From positions 1-29,338 of IMG/VR virus record IMGVR_UViG_3300027608_000111: a DNA stretch of 29,338 bases, one strand, 5' to 3'. The DNA comes from a virus. A program made the translations under genes and the position numbers. The notes beneath the pieces were generated by a model that worked only from the letters and a program-made list of their open reading frames with translations, ran no database searches and was not told where the DNA came from. Shown here one piece after another: positions 4,047 through 20,200 of the stretch (position 1 is its first letter; each line of letters begins with the position of its first letter).

Positions 4047-6625
4047 GCACTACCGTCAACGTAACCACTGAAGGAGATGTCACCGTTGGCGTCGAGTACA
4101 ACCCTGTAGCAGGGTCGGGAACAGACACCAACATCGGAATAACTCGGACATCTTCAGCGGTTGTTGTCACTTCAAGTTCCGGCACGGACGGCACCATCCT
4201 TGCAGCCGATGGTACGAATGCTGGGGTATTCACTTCAGCCAACTACACCAAGCTAGCAGGGATCAGTGGCACCAACACAGGCGACCAGAGCATCTTCAAG
4301 AATGTAGCGGTAGCTGGGCAGTCCACGGTAGTTGCCGACTCCACTAACGACACGCTCACCCTCGTAGCGGGCACCAACATCACCCTCACAACGGATTCCG
4401 CTACCGATACCATCACAATCACGGCATCAGGAGGTGGAGGCACTGGAGACGTAGTTGGGCCAGCCAGCGCAACCAATGGAGCCTTTGCCCTATTTGACAC
4501 GACCACGGGAAAACTCCTCAAGAATGGATCAGTGCCGGGAGGAGCCGCAACGCTCAACGTAGGCACTACCAACGGCACGGTAGCGGCGGGAGATGACTCT
4601 AGGCTCACAAATGCCCGCACCCCCACCGCTCACGCCTCTACGCACGTCACAGGTGGAACTGACGCTATTCAGTCGGCTACGTCTTCCCAGAACGGCTTGG
4701 CTACTTCCACGCAGATCACTAAGCTCGACGGTATCGAAGCCGGAGCCGACGTGACTGATGCCGCGAATGTATCAGCAGCGGGGGCCGTGATGAAGACCTT
4801 GGCCGATGCCAAAGGAGATTTGTTCGCTGCTACGGCTGCTGACACCGTGACTCGACTCCCGATTGGCGTGTCCAACGGTCATGTGCTTACTGTCGATTCA
4901 GCAGAAACGACAGGGATGAAGTGGACAGCACCTTCCGGCTCTGGCGGGGACGTAGTTGGTCCTGCCAGTTCAACCGATAACGCTTTTGCACGTTTCGATT
5001 CGACTACAGGCAAGCTTCTTCAAAACAGCACCGCTACTTTGGATGACGTAGGCTTGGCTTCTGTTGATGGGGTTCAGTTTGCGACTGCCCCGACTTCCAC
5101 TGTAGGTACGGCCAAAACGGTTTGGGATACGACCAACAGTTGCCCAAGCGTTGGGCTTAACTCATCTGTGATTAGTTTTTTGGGGACTGACCTTCACCTA
5201 AAGGTTTACAATCCTACAGCAAGCGGAATGACTATCATGCAGGTCGTTCGCCAGAGCGGCGCATCGGGGACTCGCTTAAATGTCCAATTAGCCTTGGCGG
5301 ATTCCGAGACAACCTCTGCTACGTCTATCGGTGTAGTGGCTCAGTCCATCGCAAGTCATGGAGAAGGATTCATCCAAACGGCTGGACTCCTTCAAGAAGT
5401 GAACACTAACGCCTACGAAGAAGGAGACACGTTGTGGTTGTCCGCTTCGACAGCAGGGGGGATTACCAACTCCAGACCGTCTGCGCCAAACCACGGAGTG
5501 CGTATCGGTTATTGCATCAAAAAATCCGTAGGGGCTGGAATTATTTTGATCGACATCCTAAATGGGTTTGAAATTTCGGAACTGCATGATGTGCTTATCA
5601 CTGAGCCAGTTGCAGACAACAGTTTCTTAACGTACGATACTACTTCCTCAGTATGGCTGAACGAAGCTCCTTCCGCCGCAAAGTCCTCCATCGGTCTTGG
5701 GAACGTCACCAACGACGCACAGACCAAAGCAGCGATTGTTCCGAATACTGCACCGACAGCGGGGCAACTTCTTGTGGGCAATTCAGGAGGAACGGCTTAC
5801 GCTCCAGTGTCACTCAGCAGCGACGCTACCGTAGCCAGCACAGGCGCACTGACCCTAGCAACAGTGAATAGTAATGTTGGAAGTTACGGAAGCGCAACTC
5901 AGTCAGCAGCAGTCACGGTCAACGCCAAGGGTTTAGTGACCGCAGTTAATGCATCCACGATCACGCCAGCAGTTGGGTCGGTCACAGGTCTAGGGACTGG
6001 AGTCGCAACTGCTTTGGCAGTCAACGTAGGTAGTGCAGGAGCACCTGTCGTAAACGGTGGAGCACTTGGCACACCATTAAGTGGCACACTTTCTGGATGC
6101 ACAGGACTGCCTATTGCTGGACTTACTAGCTCTACAAGCACTGCTATTGGGGTAGGCACGATTGAACTCGGTGCAGCTTCCGATACGACCTTGGCTCGTA
6201 GTAGTGCAGGCAATGTCACCATCGAGGGCAACTTGATTTACCGTGCAGGTGGTAGCTTCGTTGGGATGCCTGTTGAGCTTGCTTATGCTTGCTCAGACGA
6301 AGGCACTGCTCTGACTACAGGGACTGCCAAGGTTACCTTTCGAATGCCGTTTGCCATGACACTGACAGGAATCCGTTCAAGCGTTACGACAGCTCCAACT
6401 GGCAGCACTCTTGTTGTTGACCTTAATGAAAGTGGAACATCTGTCTTGAGCACCAAACTCAGTATTGATGCTACCGAGAAAACTAGTGTCACTGCTGCGA
6501 CTGCTGCTGTTATCTCAGACAGTGCTTTGGTAGACGATGCTGAGATGACTATTGATGTGGATCAAATCGGCTCAACAATTGCAGGAGCAGGTCTGAAAGT
6601 GACCCTAATTGGAACTCGCGCATGA
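4043..6625 (+). CDS. Repetitive tail fibre protein
   Basis: This 860-aa protein consists of low-complexity beta-rich repeats of the kind found in trimeric phage fibres. A GDVVGPAS block followed by FDTTTGKLL recurs at about residues 135-161 and 302-328. Other fibre-type words include GTNTGDQ near 76, HASTHVTGGTDAI near 198-209 and GNVTNDAQTKA near 553. Residues 600-730 are an Ala/Gly/Val/Thr-rich shaft. The last 110 residues form a separate compact beta domain, probably the tip. It has very few charged residues and no signal peptide. It overlaps the genes on both sides by 4 nt. It most likely forms the shaft of a host-recognition fibre, with the LamG protein encoded next as a partner or tip. 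The receptor cannot be told from sequence. Confidence 0.85.
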   Translation: MSTTVNVTTEGDVTVGVEYNPVAGSGTDTNIGITRTSSAVVVTSSSGTDGTILAADGTNAGVFTSANYTKLAGISGTNTGDQSIFKNVAVAGQSTVVADSTNDTLTLVAGTNITLTTDSATDTITITASGGGGTGDVVGPASATNGAFALFDTTTGKLLKNGSVPGGAATLNVGTTNGTVAAGDDSRLTNARTPTAHASTHVTGGTDAIQSATSSQNGLATSTQITKLDGIEAGADVTDAANVSAAGAVMKTLADAKGDLFAATAADTVTRLPIGVSNGHVLTVDSAETTGMKWTAPSGSGGDVVGPASSTDNAFARFDSTTGKLLQNSTATLDDVGLASVDGVQFATAPTSTVGTAKTVWDTTNSCPSVGLNSSVISFLGTDLHLKVYNPTASGMTIMQVVRQSGASGTRLNVQLALADSETTSATSIGVVAQSIASHGEGFIQTAGLLQEVNTNAYEEGDTLWLSASTAGGITNSRPSAPNHGVRIGYCIKKSVGAGIILIDILNGFEISELHDVLITEPVADNSFLTYDTTSSVWLNEAPSAAKSSIGLGNVTNDAQTKAAIVPNTAPTAGQLLVGNSGGTAYAPVSLSSDATVASTGALTLATVNSNVGSYGSATQSAAVTVNAKGLVTAVNASTITPAVGSVTGLGTGVATALAVNVGSAGAPVVNGGALGTPLSGTLSGCTGLPIAGLTSSTSTAIGVGTIELGAASDTTLARSSAGNVTIEGNLIYRAGGSFVGMPVELAYACSDEGTALTTGTAKVTFRMPFAMTLTGIRSSVTTAPTGSTLVVDLNESGTSVLSTKLSIDATEKTSVTAATAAVISDSALVDDAEMTIDVDQIGSTIAGAGLKVTLIGTRA

Positions 6626-7290
6626 ACCTTGTGAATCCATACTTGTTCGCGCCTGCTGGAAATACCGATCCGTATTTCTCCAATGTTGTGCTGCTCGCTC
6701 ACTTTGACGGCACCAACGGAGCGACCACAACAACGGATTCATCAAGTTACGCCCGCACGATCACGCTGAATAGCGGCGCAGCACTCAGCACCACGTCGCC
6801 TAAATTTGGCACGGCATCTCTTCTGACTGATGGCACGGATGATTACGGGTCATGTGCTGCCTCGACTGACTTTTCATTCGGCACAGGCACAGACTTCACT
6901 GTCGAGTTTTGGTTGAAAAGCGACTCAACAGACCCCGACGGATGCGGTGTCGCGCTGCAAGGAAATACGTTTTATGTGACCCTAATCAGTGGCTCTTTAT
7001 ACTTTGGCAACGGTGGCGTGAACATGGTGGTTGCCTCATGGGCAGGACTGAATAACGCATGGCAGTTTGTCATGGCTCGACGTAGCGGCAGCACTTGTGA
7101 GCTATTCATCAACGGCGTATCGCAAGGGACTTATGGTTCATCAGTAACCATTGGTGCCAATCAAGAGCTAAGAATGAACTATGCTGCGGTCAGTGGTTCC
7201 TTTGGCAAAGGGGACATTGATGATCTCCGCATAACTAATGGAGTTGCCCGATCCAATGCCGTCCCAACCGCTGCTTTCCCCGATTCATAA
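6622..7290 (+). CDS. LamG/concanavalin A-like fold virion protein
   Basis: This 222-aa protein carries one LamG-like jelly-roll domain over most of its length. Visible marks are VVLLAHFDGTNG (about 23-34), the FGTASLLTDGTDDYG segment (about 63-77), FTVEFWLKSD (about 94-103), WQFVMARRSG and ELFINGVSQGTYG (about 140-170), and the closing IDDLRITNGVAR. This order is typical of ConA-like domains that bind carbohydrates or act as adhesion modules. It overlaps the fibre gene by 4 nt and the next gene by 1 nt (TAATG), so it belongs to the fibre operon. I infer a receptor-binding tip or fibre accessory that binds surface glycan. Ca-binding residues cannot be assigned confidently by eye. Confidence 0.8.
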   Translation: MNLVNPYLFAPAGNTDPYFSNVVLLAHFDGTNGATTTTDSSSYARTITLNSGAALSTTSPKFGTASLLTDGTDDYGSCAASTDFSFGTGTDFTVEFWLKSDSTDPDGCGVALQGNTFYVTLISGSLYFGNGGVNMVVASWAGLNNAWQFVMARRSGSTCELFINGVSQGTYGSSVTIGANQELRMNYAAVSGSFGKGDIDDLRITNGVARSNAVPTAAFPDS

Positions 7291-10180: not shown

Positions 10181-11044
10181 ATGCTCGCAGTCGTCACCTG
10201 CTTCTTCAACTTTGGCAATTTCAAGCGACCACAGGCCAATCTGCATCGGTTTCTCCGGCAGATGAAACGCGACGGGGTTAAGGTCTTTGGGGTTGAAGCC
10301 CATCTTAAAGGGGCAAATACTACCACCAAGGGCATTGCCAACTGGCAGCAGATTCCTATCGAGTCGCATAACCAAATGTTGTGGCAGAAGGAAGCCGCCA
10401 TCAATCTTGCGGCTAAGGTTATTCCAGCCGAGTTCACCAACTTGGCGTGGATTGATGCCGATGTTTGGTTTGACAACCCCAACTGGGTAAAGGATACGGA
10501 GCGGGCATTAGAAACCTGCGAGGTAGTGCAGATGTTTGATCGAGCCGTTTGGACTGGGCCAGATGGAAAGGCATCCTTGAGCAAATGCTCGGTGGCAGAG
10601 ACGCAACTGGATATGCAGTGGCGGAGCCATCCCGGTTTCGCATGGGCGATGCGCCGAGATGTCTGGGGGCGTATTGGAGGGTTATTCCCCTTTGCGGCAT
10701 CAGGGGCGGGGGACACCGTGATGGCTATGGCTTTTCAAGGCTCCAAGCTGCCACCTACTTTCCAGCAGAATGTGGGGGCTAATCCGGCTCGCTATGACGC
10801 ATGGAAGAGCAATCTTTATCCCTGCATATTGGGGCATATCCAAGGGACTTGTTACCATGAATGGCATGGAACGATGGAAGATCGCGACTACATTGGCCGG
10901 AGAGAACGGGTTGCCAAAATTGATTCTGAAAAAGATTTACAAATAGCCTCCAACGGATTATTGGCGTGGACAGAATCTGCAAACCCCAAAATCATTGGGG
11001 AGGTTCGGCAATACTTCACTTCCAAAAATGACGACAAACTCTAA
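10181..11044 (+). CDS. GT-A-type glycosyltransferase-like protein
   Basis: This 287-aa protein opens with a beta strand MLAVVTCFFNFGNF typical of nucleotide-sugar-binding Rossmann-like GT-A folds and carries an acidic DAD (residues 92-94) in the strand context AWIDADVWFD, the expected metal-binding DxD motif. A further GT-like segment is HPGFAWAMRRDVW (about 149-161), followed by GAGDTVMAMAF and a His-rich GHIQGTCYHEWHG (about 218-230). It probably transfers a sugar from an NDP-sugar, to host or virion surface glycans or to DNA bases. The gene lies 5 nt after the endolysin and its end overlaps the dNMP kinase by 17 nt. The acceptor is not known. It differs from the GT8-like protein at 14892. 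Confidence 0.7.
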   Translation: MLAVVTCFFNFGNFKRPQANLHRFLRQMKRDGVKVFGVEAHLKGANTTTKGIANWQQIPIESHNQMLWQKEAAINLAAKVIPAEFTNLAWIDADVWFDNPNWVKDTERALETCEVVQMFDRAVWTGPDGKASLSKCSVAETQLDMQWRSHPGFAWAMRRDVWGRIGGLFPFAASGAGDTVMAMAFQGSKLPPTFQQNVGANPARYDAWKSNLYPCILGHIQGTCYHEWHGTMEDRDYIGRRERVAKIDSEKDLQIASNGLLAWTESANPKIIGEVRQYFTSKNDDKL

Positions 11045-11607: not shown

Positions 11608-14600
11608 ATGGCTACTGCGAACTCCGCCTCAAAACTGCTGCCCTCGCAGCGGATTCCTTTTAACCCTACGAGCACCGATGTGTTTGTGGTGGAGAACTTC
11701 AATGTTGTTCAGTCGCCCAACGACTCGATCCCTGCCTACGGGACTCCGCACAACGACATCTCCAAGCTCAAGTCTTGGCCTGACCACAAGTTCTGCCTTC
11801 AGACTCAGCCGGACGAGAAGGGAAATTATCAGAGGTGGTACGTAGCGGACCAAGTTTCCCAAAACCTATACAACTGGGAAATCAGCGATTCTGGTCCTTG
11901 GCCTGCCATCAACCAGACGTTTGTCATCCCCCGTGCGGATTACCGCACCCTTCCGGCAACACCGTCAACGACCTACCCTGCTCCACCGAATCCGCCTCTC
12001 GACACAACGGACTACGAGATCACGGCAACGCAGGAGCAGCGCATTGGGGAACCGAAGTTGGACAGTCTGTATGTCTCCGTCCAAGTGACTCGGGAGAAGA
12101 CAAGCGTCGTCAATACTGCGTATGAGGTAGATTTGGACACTAACACTGTCAAAGCTACTCAAACCCAGAAAGTAGCCGCAGGCACACAAGCCTCTGGAGT
12201 GGCAGCAGACGGAACGTATAGCAACGTGTCCGTGATCAACTCCCTTTGGTCTACCAAAACGACCCAGAAGGCAGCAGGACTGGCAGGAACGTCCAACAAT
12301 GGAGTTGCGACTCGCATTCTCTACTACCGAGATAACTACACTTGGCCCAGAGTCCTGAACTACATCAATATTCAGGCAATCCAGAGCGACCCACGAAACA
12401 TCTATTCCCCGATTTCTTCTTTCTCTTGGTCGCCAGTCTGGCTTGCGGATGCCTTTGATGGGCCGTGCGACTACACTCTTGTGGAGCGGTGGACACTCGC
12501 GAAACCGATCTTCAATGGGGATTCGGGGTGGAACACAGGGACTGTCTGGGCGGCATCCACCGTGTATGCCGTGGATGCCTACATCACCCGTGTAGTAGGT
12601 AGTTCCCCAACCTACTACAAATGCACTACAGCACACACATCTGGTTCGACGTTTAATGCCGCCTATTGGACTCAGGTTTCTCCCCTGATCCCGCAGGAAA
12701 CGCCAATGTTGCGCTCCGAGATTGTTTTCAATGGAAGGGATTTGAAAATCAATATCCCTGCCTGTTTGCATGATCGCTACAGCCTTTGGGACACCCAGTT
12801 CTCACAGACATACCCAGCAACCAACCCGACCCGCTGGCCTGCAACGGTGCTTGCCCGTGTAACTGTTTCCCCAGACCAAGGCGGATACCTGACTCGGATG
12901 TTCTACGTCAAGTCTCCGAGCACCGCAGGGAACCCGACAGACATTTCTCTCAGTCTCACCGCAGAGACGGCAACTGGCTTCACGCTTTCTGGCAACGTAG
13001 CCAAGACGGTTCCGACAGGAACGATGTACCTTTCCATCGCGACTGACCCGAACTTCGGCGGAGGCTTCTTGGGGAGCTACAACGCTTTGTCGATTGGTAG
13101 TCATACCCTGAATACCGCTAGCTTGACGACAACTGTTGTCACGGGGGCGACTCGCGGAGTCACCTACTACGCCAAACTTGTCTGTGCAGGCGTGACAAGC
13201 AATCTCTGCATAGCATTCACTGACCCGCAGCCTGAACTCCTAGTCTCTACTACAGGGGGCGATAATCTTGTGAGTGAAGCCCCTGCGACGGGGGCCAGCA
13301 CAGCAGATGCTGTTTCGGTTGGGGGCCAGTCCACTTTGGCGCTCACGCTGACGAACATCGGCCTTGAGTCCTTATCTGGGTTCTCCACGACTAAGACATC
13401 AGGTGTAGCGGAGGATGCCGCCATGTTCACGGTGCAGCAATTTCCTGCTTCCATTGCCCCTTCTAATTCGGCGGCATGGAGCATCTACTTCAAGCCAACC
13501 TCTCCCGGCTACAAGAGTGCCACCATCATAATCACAAGCAACGCTTCGACGACTTACGTTATCAATGTCGCAGGGACAGGGGTAGCCGCTGACATCCAAG
13601 TCGAGTTAGTGCAACTCCCCAGTAACCTAGTCTTAACCAATGGTGGAAACACGGTAGATTTTGGCATCGTGACAGGTGGTTCAGCCACTGAGACTTTTGT
13701 TATCAAGAACGTCGGCAACGACTCAGTTCCCTTACGTAGTCTAGCTGTTGCTGTAAACGGGGCAAATGCCTCTGACTACATACCCTCGGCCCTATCCGTT
13801 ACGGAGTTAGCAAGCGGCACGTTCACGACGTTCACGGTCACGTTTTACCCAGTTGACGAGGAGACATCCTCCAGCACTCGCACGGCTACACTTTCCCTCA
13901 CCAGCACAGATGCCGACGAAAGCCCGTTTACCGTCAGTCTGACCGGAGTTTCACAGAACCCATCAGCGCCGGGGGCAGTCGATCTGACTTGGGATGCAGA
14001 CGCAAATGGAGCTATTTACGGGATTGCCCACCAACCCGATGGAAAAGCCATTCTTGTCGGCATCTTTAACAGCATAGGCGGAACAGATTGTTATCGAATT
14101 GCTCGTATCAACACCGCCGATGGTTCAGTTGATGGGACTTTTGACACAGACCCGGGAGCAAACGGAAACGTCCACTGCGTCCTCATACAGCCTGACGGCA
14201 AGATCATCATAGGGGGAGACTTCACATCAGTTGCAGCATCAGCTAGGAACAATATCGCCCGCCTAGACTCAACTGGAGCTATTGACGCAGGGTTCGACCC
14301 AGATGCAGATGGTGTCGTGCGCTGCATGGCCCTCCAAGACGACGGCAGCATCATCGTAGGTGGAGACTTCGCCAACATTGGAGGAGGAGTAAAAGCATGG
14401 CTCGCCCGCATCGACTCTTCTGGAGTTCTCGACACCTCGTTCACAAGTGAAATTGACACGGTATCTAACCCCGCAGCCGTTTATGGCGTGACACTGCTTG
14501 AGGATGGACGGGTAGCCGTTGTTGGGGCGTGGAGTGACGGTATATTCCCAACTCCTTCCCCATCAACGACTCCTACACCGGATGTCAGCCCTACCCCTGA

Positions 14601-14895
14601 CGTTAGCCCTACACCGGATGTCAGTCCTACACCGGATGTCAGTCCTACACCGGATGTCAGTCCTACACCGGATGTCAGTCCTACCCCTGACGTTAGCCCT
14701 ACCCCTGACGTTAGCCCTACCCCGGATGTCAGTCCTACCCCTGACGTTAGCCCTACCCCGGATGTCAGTCCTACCCCTGACGTTAGCCCTACCCCGGATG
14801 TCAGTCCTACACCGGATGTCAGCCCTACCCCTGACGTTAGCCCTACACCGGATGTCAGCCCTACCCCTGACGTTAGCCCTACTCCTTCACCATGA
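11608..14895 (+). CDS. Giant virion adhesin part A: CBM, FN3-like, ASH and delta-60 repeats with PTPDVS tail
   Basis: This 1,095-aa protein begins with a phage-type N-terminus (about 1-300), followed by a CBM5/12-like chitin/cellulose-binding motif at about 312-357 (Trp-rich, with TYYKCTTAHTSGSTFN). An FN3-like region (about 440-540) precedes two choice-of-anchor-D/ASH domains (541-660 and 660-790). Delta-60 beta-propeller repeats run from 792 to 985 (PDGKIIIGGDFTSV type). The fourth repeat is cut short, and the chain then becomes PTPSPSTT plus 17 PTPDVS units (989-1090). It probably forms a host-binding fibre or appendage. The tail and the missing half-repeat, found at the start of the 17291 gene, suggest the gene was split by an insertion. 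It starts after an AT-rich 34-bp gap and overlaps the next gene by 4 nt. Confidence 0.8.
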   Translation: MATANSASKLLPSQRIPFNPTSTDVFVVENFNVVQSPNDSIPAYGTPHNDISKLKSWPDHKFCLQTQPDEKGNYQRWYVADQVSQNLYNWEISDSGPWPAINQTFVIPRADYRTLPATPSTTYPAPPNPPLDTTDYEITATQEQRIGEPKLDSLYVSVQVTREKTSVVNTAYEVDLDTNTVKATQTQKVAAGTQASGVAADGTYSNVSVINSLWSTKTTQKAAGLAGTSNNGVATRILYYRDNYTWPRVLNYINIQAIQSDPRNIYSPISSFSWSPVWLADAFDGPCDYTLVERWTLAKPIFNGDSGWNTGTVWAASTVYAVDAYITRVVGSSPTYYKCTTAHTSGSTFNAAYWTQVSPLIPQETPMLRSEIVFNGRDLKINIPACLHDRYSLWDTQFSQTYPATNPTRWPATVLARVTVSPDQGGYLTRMFYVKSPSTAGNPTDISLSLTAETATGFTLSGNVAKTVPTGTMYLSIATDPNFGGGFLGSYNALSIGSHTLNTASLTTTVVTGATRGVTYYAKLVCAGVTSNLCIAFTDPQPELLVSTTGGDNLVSEAPATGASTADAVSVGGQSTLALTLTNIGLESLSGFSTTKTSGVAEDAAMFTVQQFPASIAPSNSAAWSIYFKPTSPGYKSATIIITSNASTTYVINVAGTGVAADIQVELVQLPSNLVLTNGGNTVDFGIVTGGSATETFVIKNVGNDSVPLRSLAVAVNGANASDYIPSALSVTELASGTFTTFTVTFYPVDEETSSSTRTATLSLTSTDADESPFTVSLTGVSQNPSAPGAVDLTWDADANGAIYGIAHQPDGKAILVGIFNSIGGTDCYRIARINTADGSVDGTFDTDPGANGNVHCVLIQPDGKIIIGGDFTSVAASARNNIARLDSTGAIDAGFDPDADGVVRCMALQDDGSIIVGGDFANIGGGVKAWLARIDSSGVLDTSFTSEIDTVSNPAAVYGVTLLEDGRVAVVGAWSDGIFPTPSPSTTPTPDVSPTPDVSPTPDVSPTPDVSPTPDVSPTPDVSPTPDVSPTPDVSPTPDVSPTPDVSPTPDVSPTPDVSPTPDVSPTPDVSPTPDVSPTPDVSPTPDVSPTPSP
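14572..14877 (+). repeat. 18-bp minisatellite, 17 units, encoding PTPDVS
   Basis: Seventeen back-to-back 18-bp units, all in frame, encode PTPDVS without a single amino acid change. They come in two codon versions: ten read CCG-GAT-GTC-AG(T/C) and seven read CCT-GAC-GTT-AGC. In the second version four codons change together (Pro, Asp, Val, Ser), which is unlikely from random drift in separate units. From 14698 the two forms mostly alternate in 36-bp pairs. The array should change length easily by slippage or recombination, and any whole-unit change keeps the frame. It sits at the very end of part A. Confidence 0.97.
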
Positions 14896-15572
14896 TTAAA
14901 GTATTTATTGGTTATGACCAGCATGAAACAGTCGCCTACCATGCGGCAGCGCATAGTTTGATCCGCCATGCTTCTGAGCCGATCTCAATAGCACCGCTGG
15001 CGCTCCCTCAGTTGAAGTCTTTCTTCAATCGGGAGCGAACACCAACACAAGCAACTGATTTCTCATTCTCTCGTTTCTTGGTACCTTTTCTGTGCGACTT
15101 TGACGGCTGGGCTATTTTTATGGATTCAGACGTTATCGTAGTTGACGACATTGCTAAACTTTGGGCGCTTAGAGACGAAGCGTTTGCCGTGCATGTCGTT
15201 AAGCACGATCATCAACCATCAGAGACAACAAAATTTCTCAATCAGCCGCAGACTCGTTACCCCAAAAAGAACTGGAGTAGTGTGATGCTTATGAACTGCG
15301 CTAAATGCAAAGCTCTGACTCCTGAGTACGTGAATACGGCGAGCGGTTTAGACCTTCATAGATTCAACTGGTTAGCCTCAGAAGATTTAGTTGGCGAACT
15401 ACCATCAAGGTGGAACCACCTCGTCGATTATGACGAGAAAAAACCCATCAACGAACTTTCAATCATCCACTATACAGATGGTGGGCCTTGGTTCATCCCG
15501 ACTCAAGATTGTGGTTATTCAAGTCTTTGGATAGACGAACTTGCGAGAATGTCCCACGCTACTAACTTATGA
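14892..15572 (+). CDS. GT8-like glycosyltransferase
   Basis: This 226-aa protein matches a well-known phage and cyanobacterial glycosyltransferase group. It opens with MIKVFIGYDQHETVAYHA, has SRFLVPFL near residue 62, the metal-binding MDSD at 77-80 followed by DD, VVKHDHQPSE near 101, the KNWSSVMLMNC segment near 125, and the HYTDGGPWF motif near 194. It should transfer a sugar from an NDP-sugar with Mn2+. The acceptor could be a virion protein, a host surface glycan or another phage product. It overlaps part A by 4 nt and the next gene by 4 nt. It is the first gene of the cassette that separates the two delta-60 genes, and the cassette is visibly more AT-rich than its flanks in the lines I counted. 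Confidence 0.88.
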   Translation: MIKVFIGYDQHETVAYHAAAHSLIRHASEPISIAPLALPQLKSFFNRERTPTQATDFSFSRFLVPFLCDFDGWAIFMDSDVIVVDDIAKLWALRDEAFAVHVVKHDHQPSETTKFLNQPQTRYPKKNWSSVMLMNCAKCKALTPEYVNTASGLDLHRFNWLASEDLVGELPSRWNHLVDYDEKKPINELSIIHYTDGGPWFIPTQDCGYSSLWIDELARMSHATNL

Positions 15573-16678
15573 ACCCAGAGACAGCTAAATATCAAGGTCT
15601 TTACGCTAGTAGTGCTAATTACGGCCATCTTAACCACGGCAGCAGAGCAATACCTTTGCTAGTCAAATGGAACCCGGCATCCGTTTTAGACGTTGGGTGT
15701 GGTGGAAATGAGTTTATCAAAAGTTTTCTGGAGTTATGCCCCTCTGCTAAGGCAGTAGGAATGGACTTTGCATCCCCTTTTGCGGATATTCTAGGTGACG
15801 TAGCAAGTATCCCAGCCGGAAATAAAGAGTACGACGTGATAACTTCGTTCGATATGCTGGAGCATCTGACCCCCGAACAGATTGATCCAGTGCTTAAAGA
15901 AATGTCCCGTGTTTCCAAGCGCTTCATCTTCTCTGTTTCTTATGTTCCTAGCAAGAGACTTTGGGAAGGGCAGAATTTACACCCTACAGTCCGTCCTGAA
16001 AATTGGTGGATTCGGAAGATAATCCAAGCTGGAGGCATCGGAGTCAAAGTGAAAGGTGGGTACATTATTGGCGAGTGGCAGACACTTTTTCAAGTCACCC
16101 CAGAAACTACCTGCGTGCTCGTAGGGAACGGCCCTTCGCTACTGGATAAAGACAGAGGGGAGCAGATCGATGCTTTCAATGAGATTGTTCGGTTTAATCG
16201 CTATATTTTGAAAGGGTATGAGAACAAAATAGGGACTCGTACAACTTTGTGGAGCACCTATGGAAGGGGGCGTTTGCCCTTGACCGTAGATGAGCGCCCC
16301 TCCCGTGTCATATACACTCACGGTGAATCCGGGGGTGGCCCTGCGTATACCCCCGAACACCTTTATGCTATCCCTCACTGGTTTTGGGCTGAGACTACCC
16401 GTGATCTGCGTGCTTTCGCAAAATGGGAGTGCGGATTTGATATTGAGGCCCCAAAACTGATACCAACTAGCGGATTGATGGTCGCTGCGTGGTTCCTCCA
16501 AATAATTGGCATCAGTAAAATAAGCTTGGTGGGTTTTGACCACTTTAGAAAAGACCGCAGCAAGCAGCACCACTACTGGGATACACGCCCTTTTAAGAAG
16601 CCGTCAGAGCATAGTGGGGAGGTTGAGGCAGCGATGTTTGCTTATCTCGCAAAGCTAGGGAAAGTCGAATATATTTGA
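15569..16678 (+). CDS. Fused class I methyltransferase and GT29 sialyltransferase-like protein
   Basis: This 369-aa protein has two domains. Residues 1-175 are a SAM-dependent methyltransferase with motif I VLDVGCGG at 39-46 and an SFDMLEHL strand near 93-100. Residues 180-369 match GT29-type sialyltransferases: an L-motif-like VLVGNGPSL at 183-191, VRFNR at 207-211, an S-motif-like PTSGLMVAAW at 299-308, GFDHF at 322-326, and the His pair at 334-335. GT29 enzymes move sialic acid from CMP-sialic acid to a glycan. Methylation could cap or mark the same glycan. Joining both activities in one chain is uncommon. The gene overlaps the GT8-like gene by 4 nt and ends 2 nt from the HNH gene, which reads in the opposite direction. 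Confidence 0.82.
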   Translation: MNPETAKYQGLYASSANYGHLNHGSRAIPLLVKWNPASVLDVGCGGNEFIKSFLELCPSAKAVGMDFASPFADILGDVASIPAGNKEYDVITSFDMLEHLTPEQIDPVLKEMSRVSKRFIFSVSYVPSKRLWEGQNLHPTVRPENWWIRKIIQAGGIGVKVKGGYIIGEWQTLFQVTPETTCVLVGNGPSLLDKDRGEQIDAFNEIVRFNRYILKGYENKIGTRTTLWSTYGRGRLPLTVDERPSRVIYTHGESGGGPAYTPEHLYAIPHWFWAETTRDLRAFAKWECGFDIEAPKLIPTSGLMVAAWFLQIIGISKISLVGFDHFRKDRSKQHHYWDTRPFKKPSEHSGEVEAAMFAYLAKLGKVEYI

Positions 16679-16680
16679 AG

Positions 16681-17163
16681 CTAGCGCACATGCTTCCACG
16701 ACTTGTACAGAGCGATTTTACTTACGTTCTTTTGCGTAGTGTTGAAGTCGCGAGCTATCTTTGTCTGCACTACGCCTTGGTGTAAAAGTTTTCGTATCTG
16801 GGCAACTTTATGCTCTGTCAGACGAGACTGCGGAAGCCTTGTCCCGCGAGCCGTATTACTTCGGCCTTTGGAAATTCTGTCAGCGCAGTTCGTTTGGACA
16901 TCTCCAAGAAATAAATGGTCTGGATTGACGCAACTCCTGCAATCACATTTGTGCAGCACATCCACACCATCCGGTATTGGGCCAAAGTGTATGAGCCAAG
17001 ATAGCCTGTGGGCAAGAACGGTCTGACCATTGGCCTTTGTTTTGCCGTACCCTCCTGCGTTTAAACTTCCAATCCAAGACCAGCATGACAACAGCCCTTG
17101 ATATTGTGGGACACCTTGGTCTGGTCGATAACCAATTCTATTTCTTGACCAAAACAAGCGCAT
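16681..17163 (-). CDS. HNH homing-type endonuclease
   Basis: This 160-aa protein on the minus strand is the only minus-strand gene I call. It opens MRLFWSRNRIG, has a CWSWIGSLNAGGYG segment, then the HNH core: VLHKC with His71, and CVNPDHLFLGD with Asn80 and His83. Residues 114-149 look like a helix-turn-helix (KVAQIRKLLHQGVVQTKIARDF), which would give DNA recognition. This arrangement is typical of free-standing phage homing endonucleases that cut DNA lacking their own copy and spread by repair. An earlier ATG at 17226 gives a 181-aa version, and the frame stays open upstream to 17529. It sits at the right edge of the cassette that separates the delta-60 genes. Confidence 0.85.
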   Translation of the reverse strand: MRLFWSRNRIGYRPDQGVPQYQGLLSCWSWIGSLNAGGYGKTKANGQTVLAHRLSWLIHFGPIPDGVDVLHKCDCRSCVNPDHLFLGDVQTNCADRISKGRSNTARGTRLPQSRLTEHKVAQIRKLLHQGVVQTKIARDFNTTQKNVSKIALYKSWKHVR

Positions 17164-17290
17164 GAGTTGGTGGCTTATCTTGACACTAACGGGTACTATT
17201 GGTATTTGTGCGTTGAAAGCATTCATGTTATGGTGAGTGTGGTTGACCTTAGTGGTAGTATAAGTCGGCTGTAAACGCAAGCGTATTTCT
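17164..17290 (+). promoter_or_regulatory. Upstream region of adhesin part B
   Basis: This 127-bp gap separates the HNH gene from the delta-60 part B gene and contains the possible longer HNH start (17226, minus). A -10-like TATAAG lies at 17259-17264 on the plus strand, 27 bp before the ATG at 17291, but its spacing from the only -35-like TTGACC (17243-17248) is too short at 10 bp. No clear promoter is visible, and no ribosome-binding motif precedes the ATG. Confidence 0.25.
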
Positions 17291-20200
17291 ATGAGCATCC
17301 CTGACCGCATCGCAATCCTCAACTCGGACGGAACCACTGACACATCTTTCGCCGTGGGCGCTGGACTCGACAACACTGGATATAGCATCACAGCACTACC
17401 CACGGGGGAGATCATCGTAGGGGGAGAATTTTTATATGTCGGAAGCCATATCCAAGCACGCCTAGCCGTCCTCAATGCAGACGGCACCCTCGTTCCGAGC
17501 ATCCCGACACCATCCGCAGCCGTCAACACGCTGGCTCTTCAGACTGATGGAAGCGTCATCTTTGGCGGTGATTTCACCACAGTTGGCAGCACCAACCGCA
17601 ACCGACTTGCCAGACTCCTCCCCGACCTGACTCTTGAGGCAGCGTTCAACCCGAACGTAAATGGCAGTGTGAATGCGCTTGCTTTGCAAACCGATGGGAA
17701 GATTCTCGCAGGGGGCTCTTTCACCTCAGTTGGCAGCACAACCCGTAACCGTGTTGCCCGACTCTACAACGGCACAGCAGCCAACAGCCTGTATGTCGTG
17801 AACGCAGACCTCATCAAGTGGGACAGGACAGGAACAAGTGAAGAGACGCAGCGAGTCGAGTTTGAATTAAGCACCGGAGGTCCGTACAGTCAGCTACTTG
17901 GAACTATATCACGCACACCTTCAGGGTGGCAGATCGTTCCGACGTCTTCTCTTTCAGGTTCAACGAACGACATCCGAGCAACGGCTTTTCCTTCTGACTC
18001 CCACAGCGAAGGCATCCAGCAAGCGACAGTCTCCGCACCGATTGACCCTGAAATTGAGGTAGAGATTGACGGAGTTATTCTGACTTCAGGAGCCGGAACA
18101 GTTTACTTCCCGAGCACTCAGGTAGGCTCCAGTTCGCCCAAGGTGGTGACTATTAGGAACATTGGCCTTGATGATCTGACTCTTGATGCAACGCCTGTGA
18201 CTTTTTCTCCGACAGGGCAATATGCTGTCGTAACCCAGCCTTCTTCACCCGTGCTGCCGGGGCAGTCCGTGACGTTCACTGTTGACCTAACCCCAACATC
18301 CGCAGGGACAAAGACAACCACGATGACGATTCACTCCGATGACGGAGACGAAGCAAGCTTCACGGTTGCTTTCTCAGGCGCAGCCACTCCCGGCCCCGGT
18401 TCTCAAGACTCGTCGTGGCAACCCTCTCCTTCAGACTCTGTTCTGGCTATATCCCAGCGCACGACAGGGATCACCGGATTAGGAGGGGGCTTCACCTCTG
18501 TTGGTACACAGACGCGCAATCGTTATGCTTTTGTCGATTCCTCGGGAACTGTGCAAGCGCAGTCGGGTGCAGGGGTAAATAACACCGTGTACTGCATGGC
18601 TCAGTTGCCCGATGGAAAGGCATTGATCGGGGGTAATTTCACCCCCCAACGCATTCGCAGGGTCAACTCAGACGGGTCAATAGATGGAACTTTCCTCTTA
18701 TCTACAGATGGAGTCGTATACTGTATTGCACTACTACCAAGTGGATCCGTTTTGATTGCTGGCGGCTTCACAACCGTTACTCTTGGGGCTACGAGCACTC
18801 GAAAGAGTATCGCCAAAATTGATTTCTCATCTGCTGGAGTCCCTTCGTTGAACGCCTTTTCCTGTCCTTGTGATTCATCTATCTACTCCATTATCCCTCA
18901 ATCGGATGGGAAGATCATGGTATGCGGGAATTTCTATTCTATTGCTGGCTCCCCCCAAAAGTGCGTAGCAAGACTCAACTCGGACGGGTCTATTGATAGC
19001 ACTTTTGCCGCGAATCTGACGGCAGGAGGAACGGAGTCTGGAGTAATCAATTTGGACGCATCAGGCAATGTCCTACTTGGTGGAAAAAATACCTATATCT
19101 CAGGAGTGGATAATCGTGGAGTCATCCGGCTAACTCCGTTAGGGGTCAAGGATACGAGCTTCACCTTAGTTCCTTCATCGGCTCTTTCCCTTGTGCCGCA
19201 AACGGATGGAACTCTACTAATCGGGTCATCTACGAGTTACCCAGCCAGCACTTCGCGGGTCGAACGTGTGACTTCAACAGGCGCAAACGACACCACATTC
19301 GTTGCCGCTGCAACGGGAAACGTGTACTCACTGTGCGTCCAAGAAGATGGAGCACTTTTAACGGGGGGTCTATTCCAGCTAGCAGGTGGGTCTGCGACTT
19401 ATGCCGCCAAACTCATCAATGGAACAGGGTCTAGCACCTTGTCTGTCGTCGGTCAAACAGCCGTGCAGTGGCTTCGTAGCGGCACGCTGCCTGAGACGCA
19501 GATAACCGTGTTCGACCTTAGCCAAGACGGAGGCACGACTTGGACACGCCTTGGGCAAGGCACCCGCATTTCAGGAGGATGGACGCTGACAGGCATCTCT
19601 CTTCCGACAAACGGAATCCTGCGAGCAAGAGCCTATATCCAGTGCGGATATTTCAGCGGCTCGGTATCTATTCAGGAGGATCAACTCTCCTTCTCAGGTG
19701 TGCTTGCTCCAGACTTGGTGGTGCAGGTGCCAGACGGCACGACTATCCCCGACGACGGGGCAACAGGCTATTCTACTGCCATCGGTGGGGCGTTCATCGA
19801 CATCCCCGTGAAGCTCATCAACGCTGGGACTGCTACCCTCTCAAGCATTGCCGCAACCCTTACCGGATGGTTGGCCGAGCACTCTATTACGAGCACTCCA
19901 CCCACTAGCATCTCGGCAGGCAACTCCGACACGATGGTTGTTCGTTTCTCTCCTGCCACTGGAGCAAAGGGCTACCGGAGCACAACGCTCAACATTGCGT
20001 CCAATAACCCCGGCACCAAGAGCACCTACACGATTCAGGTTAATACTGCTGCCGTAGCGGTGCCTGCTGCAACCACCGGAGTCGCAAGCGCAATTGGTGG
20101 AGGCTCCGCGACACTGGCGGGAACCTTTACGCCGAATCACATCGCGGCTACCTGCTATTTCCAATACAAGCTGGTGGCTTCCTCCACATGGCTCACATCC

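Follow-up and report, generated by a model that had tools for sequence, protein, structure and literature searches.

The virus record IMGVR_UViG_3300027608_000111, whose 29,338 bp are analyzed here in full as the window, carries two fibre-like genes, denoted parts A and B, which both encode DUF5122/delta-60 proteins according to their domain matches, and which are separated by a cassette of glycosyltransferase and methyltransferase genes (Table 1). The locus is real, conserved and unusual, and the family to which it belongs consists of uncultivated phages. The explanation that we favor, with moderate confidence, is that a fibre-like protein exists permanently as two separate chains, which come together again in one β-propeller, and that a mucin-like arm on this protein is modified by exchangeable cognate enzymes.

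The array of delta-60 repeats in A stops at VYGVTLLEDGRVAVVGAWSDGIF, where the protein switches to (PTPDVS)n; the last residues of the array before this tandem repeat are VYGVTLLEDGRVAVVGAW. B starts with MSIPDRIAILNSDGTTDTSF. When the sequences were scanned with a profile of single delta-60 repeats, three full repeats and the LEDGRV turn of a fourth were found at the end of A. In B, residues 6–21 gave a partial match to profile positions 26–41 alone, followed by three more repeats. An earlier note, made from the letters of this DNA, had claimed that A ends in mid-repeat before a Pro/Thr tail, that B opens with the second half of a repeat, and that the two halves join into one normal repeat. 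All three observations hold: when A and B were joined by script, the product had seven repeats, and the distance from the turn of blade 4 to that of blade 5, which spans the junction, was 51 residues, compared to 49–54 residues for the neighboring repeats in A and B. Seven repeats were also counted in each of the intact comparators, namely propeller 2 of B and propeller 1 in each of two single-chain proteins from bacteria, L151 and L152. Judged by its repeat count, the joined A and B would thus be a seven-bladed delta-60 (DUF5122) β-propeller.

The strand inventory was taken from AlphaFold2 (AF2) models. In the model of B alone (predicted local distance difference test score, pLDDT, of 81), propeller 2 consists of seven a-b-c strand sets and the first part of B of three, while residues 1–24 have no regular strand (pLDDT 53–70). 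The propeller part of A was modeled as three a-b-c sets, followed by one a-b hairpin (strands 958–963 and 969–973). A also supplies a permuted d strand (DLTWDA) of the usual type. Since a pair of A chains would be without strand c, and a pair of B chains would have it twice, only A together with B completes both broken blades. A Foldseek search with the whole B model returned long immunoglobulin (Ig)-chain proteins at TM < 0.25 and was uninformative.

According to the model that we propose, a single ancestral fibre-like protein was cut in the b-c loop of blade 4 in propeller 1, and its two chains are the present A and B. After translation, strands a and b of this blade in A would pair with strands c and d in B, and the N-terminal d strand of A would close blade 7 of B. 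The cut loop would thereby be free to bear a Thr/Pro/Ser-rich, mucin-like arm at the C-terminus of A, on which the glycosyltransferases and methyltransferases of the cassette would build and cap O-glycans to form a sugar surface on the virion. The tail and first genes, or the whole cassette, would pass from phage to phage in exchange for one another when the conserved flanks recombine, switching the sugar coat while leaving the scaffold untouched. From the present data we infer the assembly in trans, the role of the tail as acceptor, the sugars, the location of the protein on the virion and the benefit of switching coats.

Relatives of the locus were gathered by scans of viral contigs, for which A, B and a range of diverse alignments served as queries, and ten phages in which both the A and B sides are present were compared: the window, L003, L004, L005, L006, L007, L008, L016, L026 and L036. 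In all ten, the repeat array of A breaks off after an equivalent half-repeat and B begins at one common residue, M(S)IP(D/N), at identities to the window that fall to 54% for the A protein and 44% for B (L036). The split is old and fixed, because all ten phages are divided at the same point, and the recurrence of the split position, the tail and the gene classes in ten phage contigs is beyond chance. Part A, with its conserved N-terminal region, is 54–84% identical to its full-length relatives. Codon counts over the ten phages gave a ratio of nonsynonymous to synonymous changes (pN/pS) of 0.34 for the half-blade of A (its last 22 codons) and of 0.17 for that of B, with many synonymous changes, and the half-blade of B is the most conserved 24-residue window of that protein (rank 1 of 1009). 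Such constraint on both half-blades, strongest in B, is as expected for a pairing interface.

We considered the possibility that A and B are now independent proteins, with the half-blades as unpaired leftovers, or with each chain forming homodimers. Propeller fragments can indeed homo-oligomerize, and have resisted hetero-assembly in vitro (PMC6805158). However, this possibility is improbable, given the purifying selection on both half-blades with B's the most conserved, the completion of both blades by A with B alone, and the retention of the split at one position in every phage. Recent pseudogenization of A and B was rejected on the pN/pS values of the half-blades. Still more remote, and close to negligible, is the idea of an assembly artefact or a decaying pseudogene pair around the 18-bp tandem array that encodes the PTPDVS repeats (14572–14882; 17.3 copies). 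Long low-complexity arrays are prone to mis-assembly, but the same organization is found in contigs from many separate metagenomes, with differing repeat units, and the frames are intact and under purifying selection, so that this reading is already contradicted.

The earlier note had suggested looking for a related phage with A and B in one open reading frame. No unsplit phage homologue was found in the viral-contig scans, apart from distant delta-60 proteins of other phages (L045–L058), and no fused A and B was found with the domain of B behind propeller 2 as query, which is remote from the split and brought back the same contigs. The N-terminus of A had no match in the genome collection, and among isolated phages the delta-60 matches, to phages of Stenotrophomonas and Leptospira, were all weak. 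Distant homologues in a single chain, with the post-propeller domain in common, came from bacterial metagenome-assembled genomes (MAGs): L151 (2056 aa), from a Verrucomicrobiaceae pond MAG, and L152, from another bacterial MAG. The L151 protein (L151:8431-14601), which has the same repeat and anchor domains, is a hint that the hosts of the phage family are Verrucomicrobiota. The delta-60/DUF5122 propeller proteins of Verrucomicrobia with choice-of-anchor D domains, of which L151 is an example, have the same repeat family, seven repeats, the post-propeller domain and the same overall order as the phage proteins. Unlike A and B, they are single chains with a signal-peptide-like N-terminus, no split and no cassette. 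Two single-chain delta-60 proteins of phages, L052:4984-9747 (1587 aa) and L054:2498-7813 (1771 aa), have Pro/Thr-rich linkers just before their repeats.

Between A and B of the window, Pfam identified the genes named in the earlier note: a GT8, a methyltransferase/GT29 fusion and, on the opposite strand, an HNH endonuclease. That note took the arrangement for a cassette that had landed in a fibre gene, moved by HNH-driven homing. One ancestral gene, an accessory cassette and halves that are still open are borne out, but a recent landing is not, with all ten phages split at the same point. Neither does homing account for it as a general driver: the HNH gene is present in only two of the ten cassettes (the window and L003), and in a contig practically identical to the window; the other eight have none, and no empty site was found in the phage contigs scanned. 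The GC contrast that had been estimated by hand is real, but smaller than that count (47.0% in the cassette, compared to 54.0% in the portion of A that precedes the split and 54.2% in B); the GC content of the cassette is below that of its own flanks in all ten phages. A recent HNH-driven landing in an intact fibre gene, leaving both halves open by accident, would fit the position of the HNH gene at the right border of the cassette in the window and L003, and the GC dip of ≈7 points. It is nevertheless very improbable, as the split is shared by all ten phages in spite of the low sequence identity of the most distant, and the HNH gene and the empty site are missing as described.

Missed in the earlier note was that the tail is a Thr/Pro/Ser-rich domain swapped together with the cassette genes. 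Such a tail ends A in all ten phages, built from PTPDVS, TTAPP, TTTTAPP, TTTTEEP or PSPS repeats. In the nine loci measured, the tails are 90–149 residues long and 68–90% T + P + S; L036 is of the PSPS type. Two to three glycosyltransferase or methyltransferase genes lie between A and B in each phage, and the start of the next gene overlaps the stop of A or follows it within about 10 nt. In the window, ATGA overlaps join the stop of A to the GT8 start, and GT8 to the methyltransferase-GT29 gene. The cassettes contain GT8 and the methyltransferase-GT29 fusion in the window and L003; a 423-aa protein with an FkbM methyltransferase domain and a GT2 in L004 and L026; a second GT2, an FtsJ-like methyltransferase and a GT2 in L005; two GT2 genes in L006; a methyltransferase and a GT2 in L007, L008 and L016; and a GT9 and a capsule-synthesis-like protein (Capsule_synth-like) in L036. 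A GT2 gene accompanies all seven Thr-rich tails and is missing with all three Pro/Ser-rich tails.

The cassettes are mobile, as the earlier note had proposed, and have been exchanged between phages. In L016 and L026, the DNA of A is 88–100% identical over the first kb to the left of the split, and that of B is 96–100% identical over its first 800 nt. Despite these near-identical flanks, the tails and first genes are unrelated. Similarly, A of L003 and L006 is mostly 82–98% identical per 100-nt bin over the kb nearest the split, while the cassettes are wholly different. Conversely, the 423-aa first gene is 87% identical between L004 and L026, where the flanks are mostly 45–70% identical, and L007 and L016 have in common a TTTTEEP tail and a methyltransferase (78%), although their flanks diverge. 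The cassettes thus move while the flanks stay, and the tail type travels with the gene set. With flanks conserved and tail and gene sets differing, the natural reading is recombination in the flanks that exchanges the tail and the enzymes as a unit. The tail is probably a substrate of the neighboring cassette enzymes.

The nature of the enzymes bears on this assignment. In mucin-type O-glycosylation, the polypeptide N-acetylgalactosamine (GalNAc)-transferases belong to GT27, and the ST3Gal and ST6GalNAc enzymes to GT29. The GT27 enzymes transfer GalNAc to Ser/Thr, and most of those in animals have a C-terminal ricin-type lectin domain. For a GT2 profile built from 21 sequences, the matches to GalNAc-T10, T4 and T12 spanned most of the profile (positions 35–227; 3.3e-5 to 2.9e-4). 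A better score, 2.8e-6, was obtained for a bacterial glycosyltransferase, over the N-terminal part alone, as for most other matches. D90-x-H92 and H213 are invariant in the 21 sequences and a WxHRF motif is conserved; we take H213 to be the counterpart of the GT27 metal ligand. The GT2 gene encodes 276 aa, for which Pfam shows glycosyltransferase domains alone, and no lectin domain. In its DxH motif, its distal His and its similarity over both halves, the GT2 resembles GT27, and we call it GalNAc-T-like, but not a member of GT27. The GT29 domain in the window matches ST3Gal1 (structure 2wnb) at 3.9e-8 and ST6GalNAc2 at 1.4e-4. The alignment with ST3Gal1 spans VLVGNGPSLLDKDRGEQID, PTSGLMVAAWFLQ, HHYWDTRP and H..GEVE, which we read as sialylmotifs L, S, III and VS, in that order. 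With these motifs, the methyltransferase-GT29 protein appears to be sialyltransferase-like. A phmmer search of the PDB with the GT8 of the window found no relative.

The combination of tail and enzymes is also found outside the family. In three unrelated phages without a split propeller (L066:5082-7846, L067:5322-7852 and L068:5962-7822), a small structural-looking gene has a Thr/Ser/Pro C-terminal tail, directly followed by homologues of the methyltransferase and/or GalNAc-T-like GT2 genes that relatives of the window carry; L066 also encodes a protein homologous to the N-terminal part of the 423-aa product. The tail and enzymes therefore appear to form a portable unit. Among 42 non-redundant loci outside the family, there were eight Thr/Pro tracts in 135 kb upstream of GT2, compared to one in 720 kb elsewhere, an enrichment to be read with caution, since control delta-60 phage loci had 10 tracts in 472 kb, and such tracts are thus not rare in these phages. 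In L120:42-6175, a gene of the same GT2 family is preceded by two large adjoining genes (1077 and 953 aa), both with long TTTTTTPEP or TTTTTTAEP tracts.

It could also be that the cassette enzymes act elsewhere, on polysaccharide of the host surface, on phage DNA or on a different virion protein, and that the tail is an unmodified flexible stalk or spacer. These glycosyltransferase classes also modify lipopolysaccharide and capsule, as the GT9 and Capsule_synth-like genes of L036 recall, and 34 of the 42 non-redundant phage GT2 loci have no nearby Thr tract. On the other hand, the tail type co-travels with the enzyme set across swaps, the tail gene overlaps or directly abuts an enzyme gene, and the homology is to GalNAc-T-like and sialyltransferase-like enzymes. 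We regard this alternative as unlikely, while giving it more weight than the others. Several points also weigh against a glycosylated two-chain propeller. The GalNAc-T-like GT2, present in seven of the ten cassettes, is missing from that of the window, where the initiating enzyme would therefore have to be GT8. We infer the role of the tail as acceptor from adjacency and co-travel. The AF2 model of A is poor overall (pLDDT 52), although mostly 75–87 in the propeller part. Finally, propellers are almost always single-chain, and laboratory attempts to assemble seven-bladed hetero-oligomers from fragments failed (PMC6805158), so that assembly in trans is not automatic. A more specific version of the split, glycosylated propeller can be offered tentatively: a fixed two-chain propeller in which the cut loop would be a docking site for an exchangeable mucin domain and its cognate glycosyltransferase cassettes, so that the fibre sugar coat is switched as one modular unit by enzymes resembling the animal mucin-type O-glycosylation machinery.

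Parts of this arrangement have counterparts in known systems. Sec13 and Seh1 are incomplete propellers that are completed in trans by Nup145C, Nup85, Sec31 or Sec16 (PMC8907234). The likeness lies in the closure of a propeller by part of a second chain, as proposed here. However, the partner in those complexes inserts one missing blade, whereas in the phages the junction of two half rings of nearly equal size would fall within a blade. In mycobacteriophages, phage glycosyltransferases and glycans near the C-termini of virion proteins (capsid and tail tube) are reported by Freeman et al. 2023, as cited in passages of PMC12619734 and PMC11256854. Phage-encoded glycosyltransferases are common to both cases, and C-terminal glycans would be. 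A split propeller and an exchangeable tail and enzyme unit are not described in those passages; here, the acceptor tail and the enzymes would be one unit inside a fibre-like gene. The likeness to mucin-type O-glycosylation consists of Thr/Pro/Ser-rich repeats beside GalNAc-T-like enzymes in related cassettes and an ST3Gal1-like enzyme in the window. The differences are that these are bacteriophage genes, with no endoplasmic reticulum or Golgi, that the similarity is remote, and that the window has no GalNAc-T-like gene. In the open-licence literature, we found no paper that pairs the delta-60 repeat with phage, and nothing matching Thr-rich or mucin-like phage proteins with glycosyltransferases.

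The exchangeable mucin-like tail and its enzymes are the more interesting part of the locus, compared to the split itself. If the proposed model is correct, it joins a propeller that is split within a blade and restored from half rings made separately, a mucin-like acceptor swapped as a unit with its own enzymes, and phage relatives of GalNAc-transferases and mucin sialyltransferases, three features not seen together before, as far as could be found. Nature would then have provided a split propeller of two chains, in contrast to the failed attempts at seven-bladed hetero-assembly in the laboratory (PMC6805158), and O-glycosylation enzymes of a bacterial virus with a built-in candidate substrate. 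It would also become possible to test how phages come by protein-linked sugars and alter them, why fibres would bear them (shielding, adhesion or mimicry), and whether a split scaffold protein can serve as a socket for gene exchange.

Table 1. Features of the split propeller locus in the window.
Feature	Position	Strand	Content and basis
Part A, 1095 aa	11608..14895	+	Conserved N-terminal region, two Ig-like domains, first 3.5 blades of propeller 1, mucin-like tail
Ig-like domains of part A, HYDIN/choice-of-anchor D type	within 11608..14895	+	
A's half of propeller 1	13978..14532	+	Permuted d strand (DLTWDA), three full blades (1-3) and, of blade 4, strands a-b; last LLEDGRVAVVGAW; repeat profile and AF2
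Low-complexity Pro/Thr/Ser/Asp tail of A (PTPDVS repeats)	14533..14892	+	Proposed O-glycosylation arm
GT8-like glycosyltransferase	14892..15572	+	Pfam Glyco_transf_8, E=9.3e-9; phrog_28018; MDSDV (DxD)
Methyltransferase fused to GT29 (sialyltransferase-like)	15569..16678	+	Pfam Glyco_transf_29, 5.3e-18; Methyltransf_25, 2e-9
HNH (HNH_3) endonuclease	16681..17226	-	
Part B, 1032 aa	17291..20389	+	Remaining half of propeller 1, Ig-like domains, propeller 2 (intact), additional beta domains
Half-blade of B (blade 4, strands c-d), IPDRIAILNSDGTTDTSFAVGAGL	17297..17368	+	
Intact propeller 2 in B, internal control	18377..19456	+	Seven repeats; repeat profile; AF2 model

Residues 310–360 of A (window 12535–12690) form a small carbohydrate-binding-like insert that is present in most relatives, but not in L007 and L008, and looks like another insertion/deletion module inside A. 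Upstream of A, at 10181–11044, lies a gene with weak similarity to β-1,4-glycosyltransferases (phrog_13126); a homologue was found in L004 and L005, and none was seen at that place in L006. The same gene region of the window also encodes a 2-oxoglutarate (2OG)-Fe(II) oxygenase and a protein with a laminin-G/concanavalin-like lectin domain, at 1737–2243 and 6622–7290, respectively.

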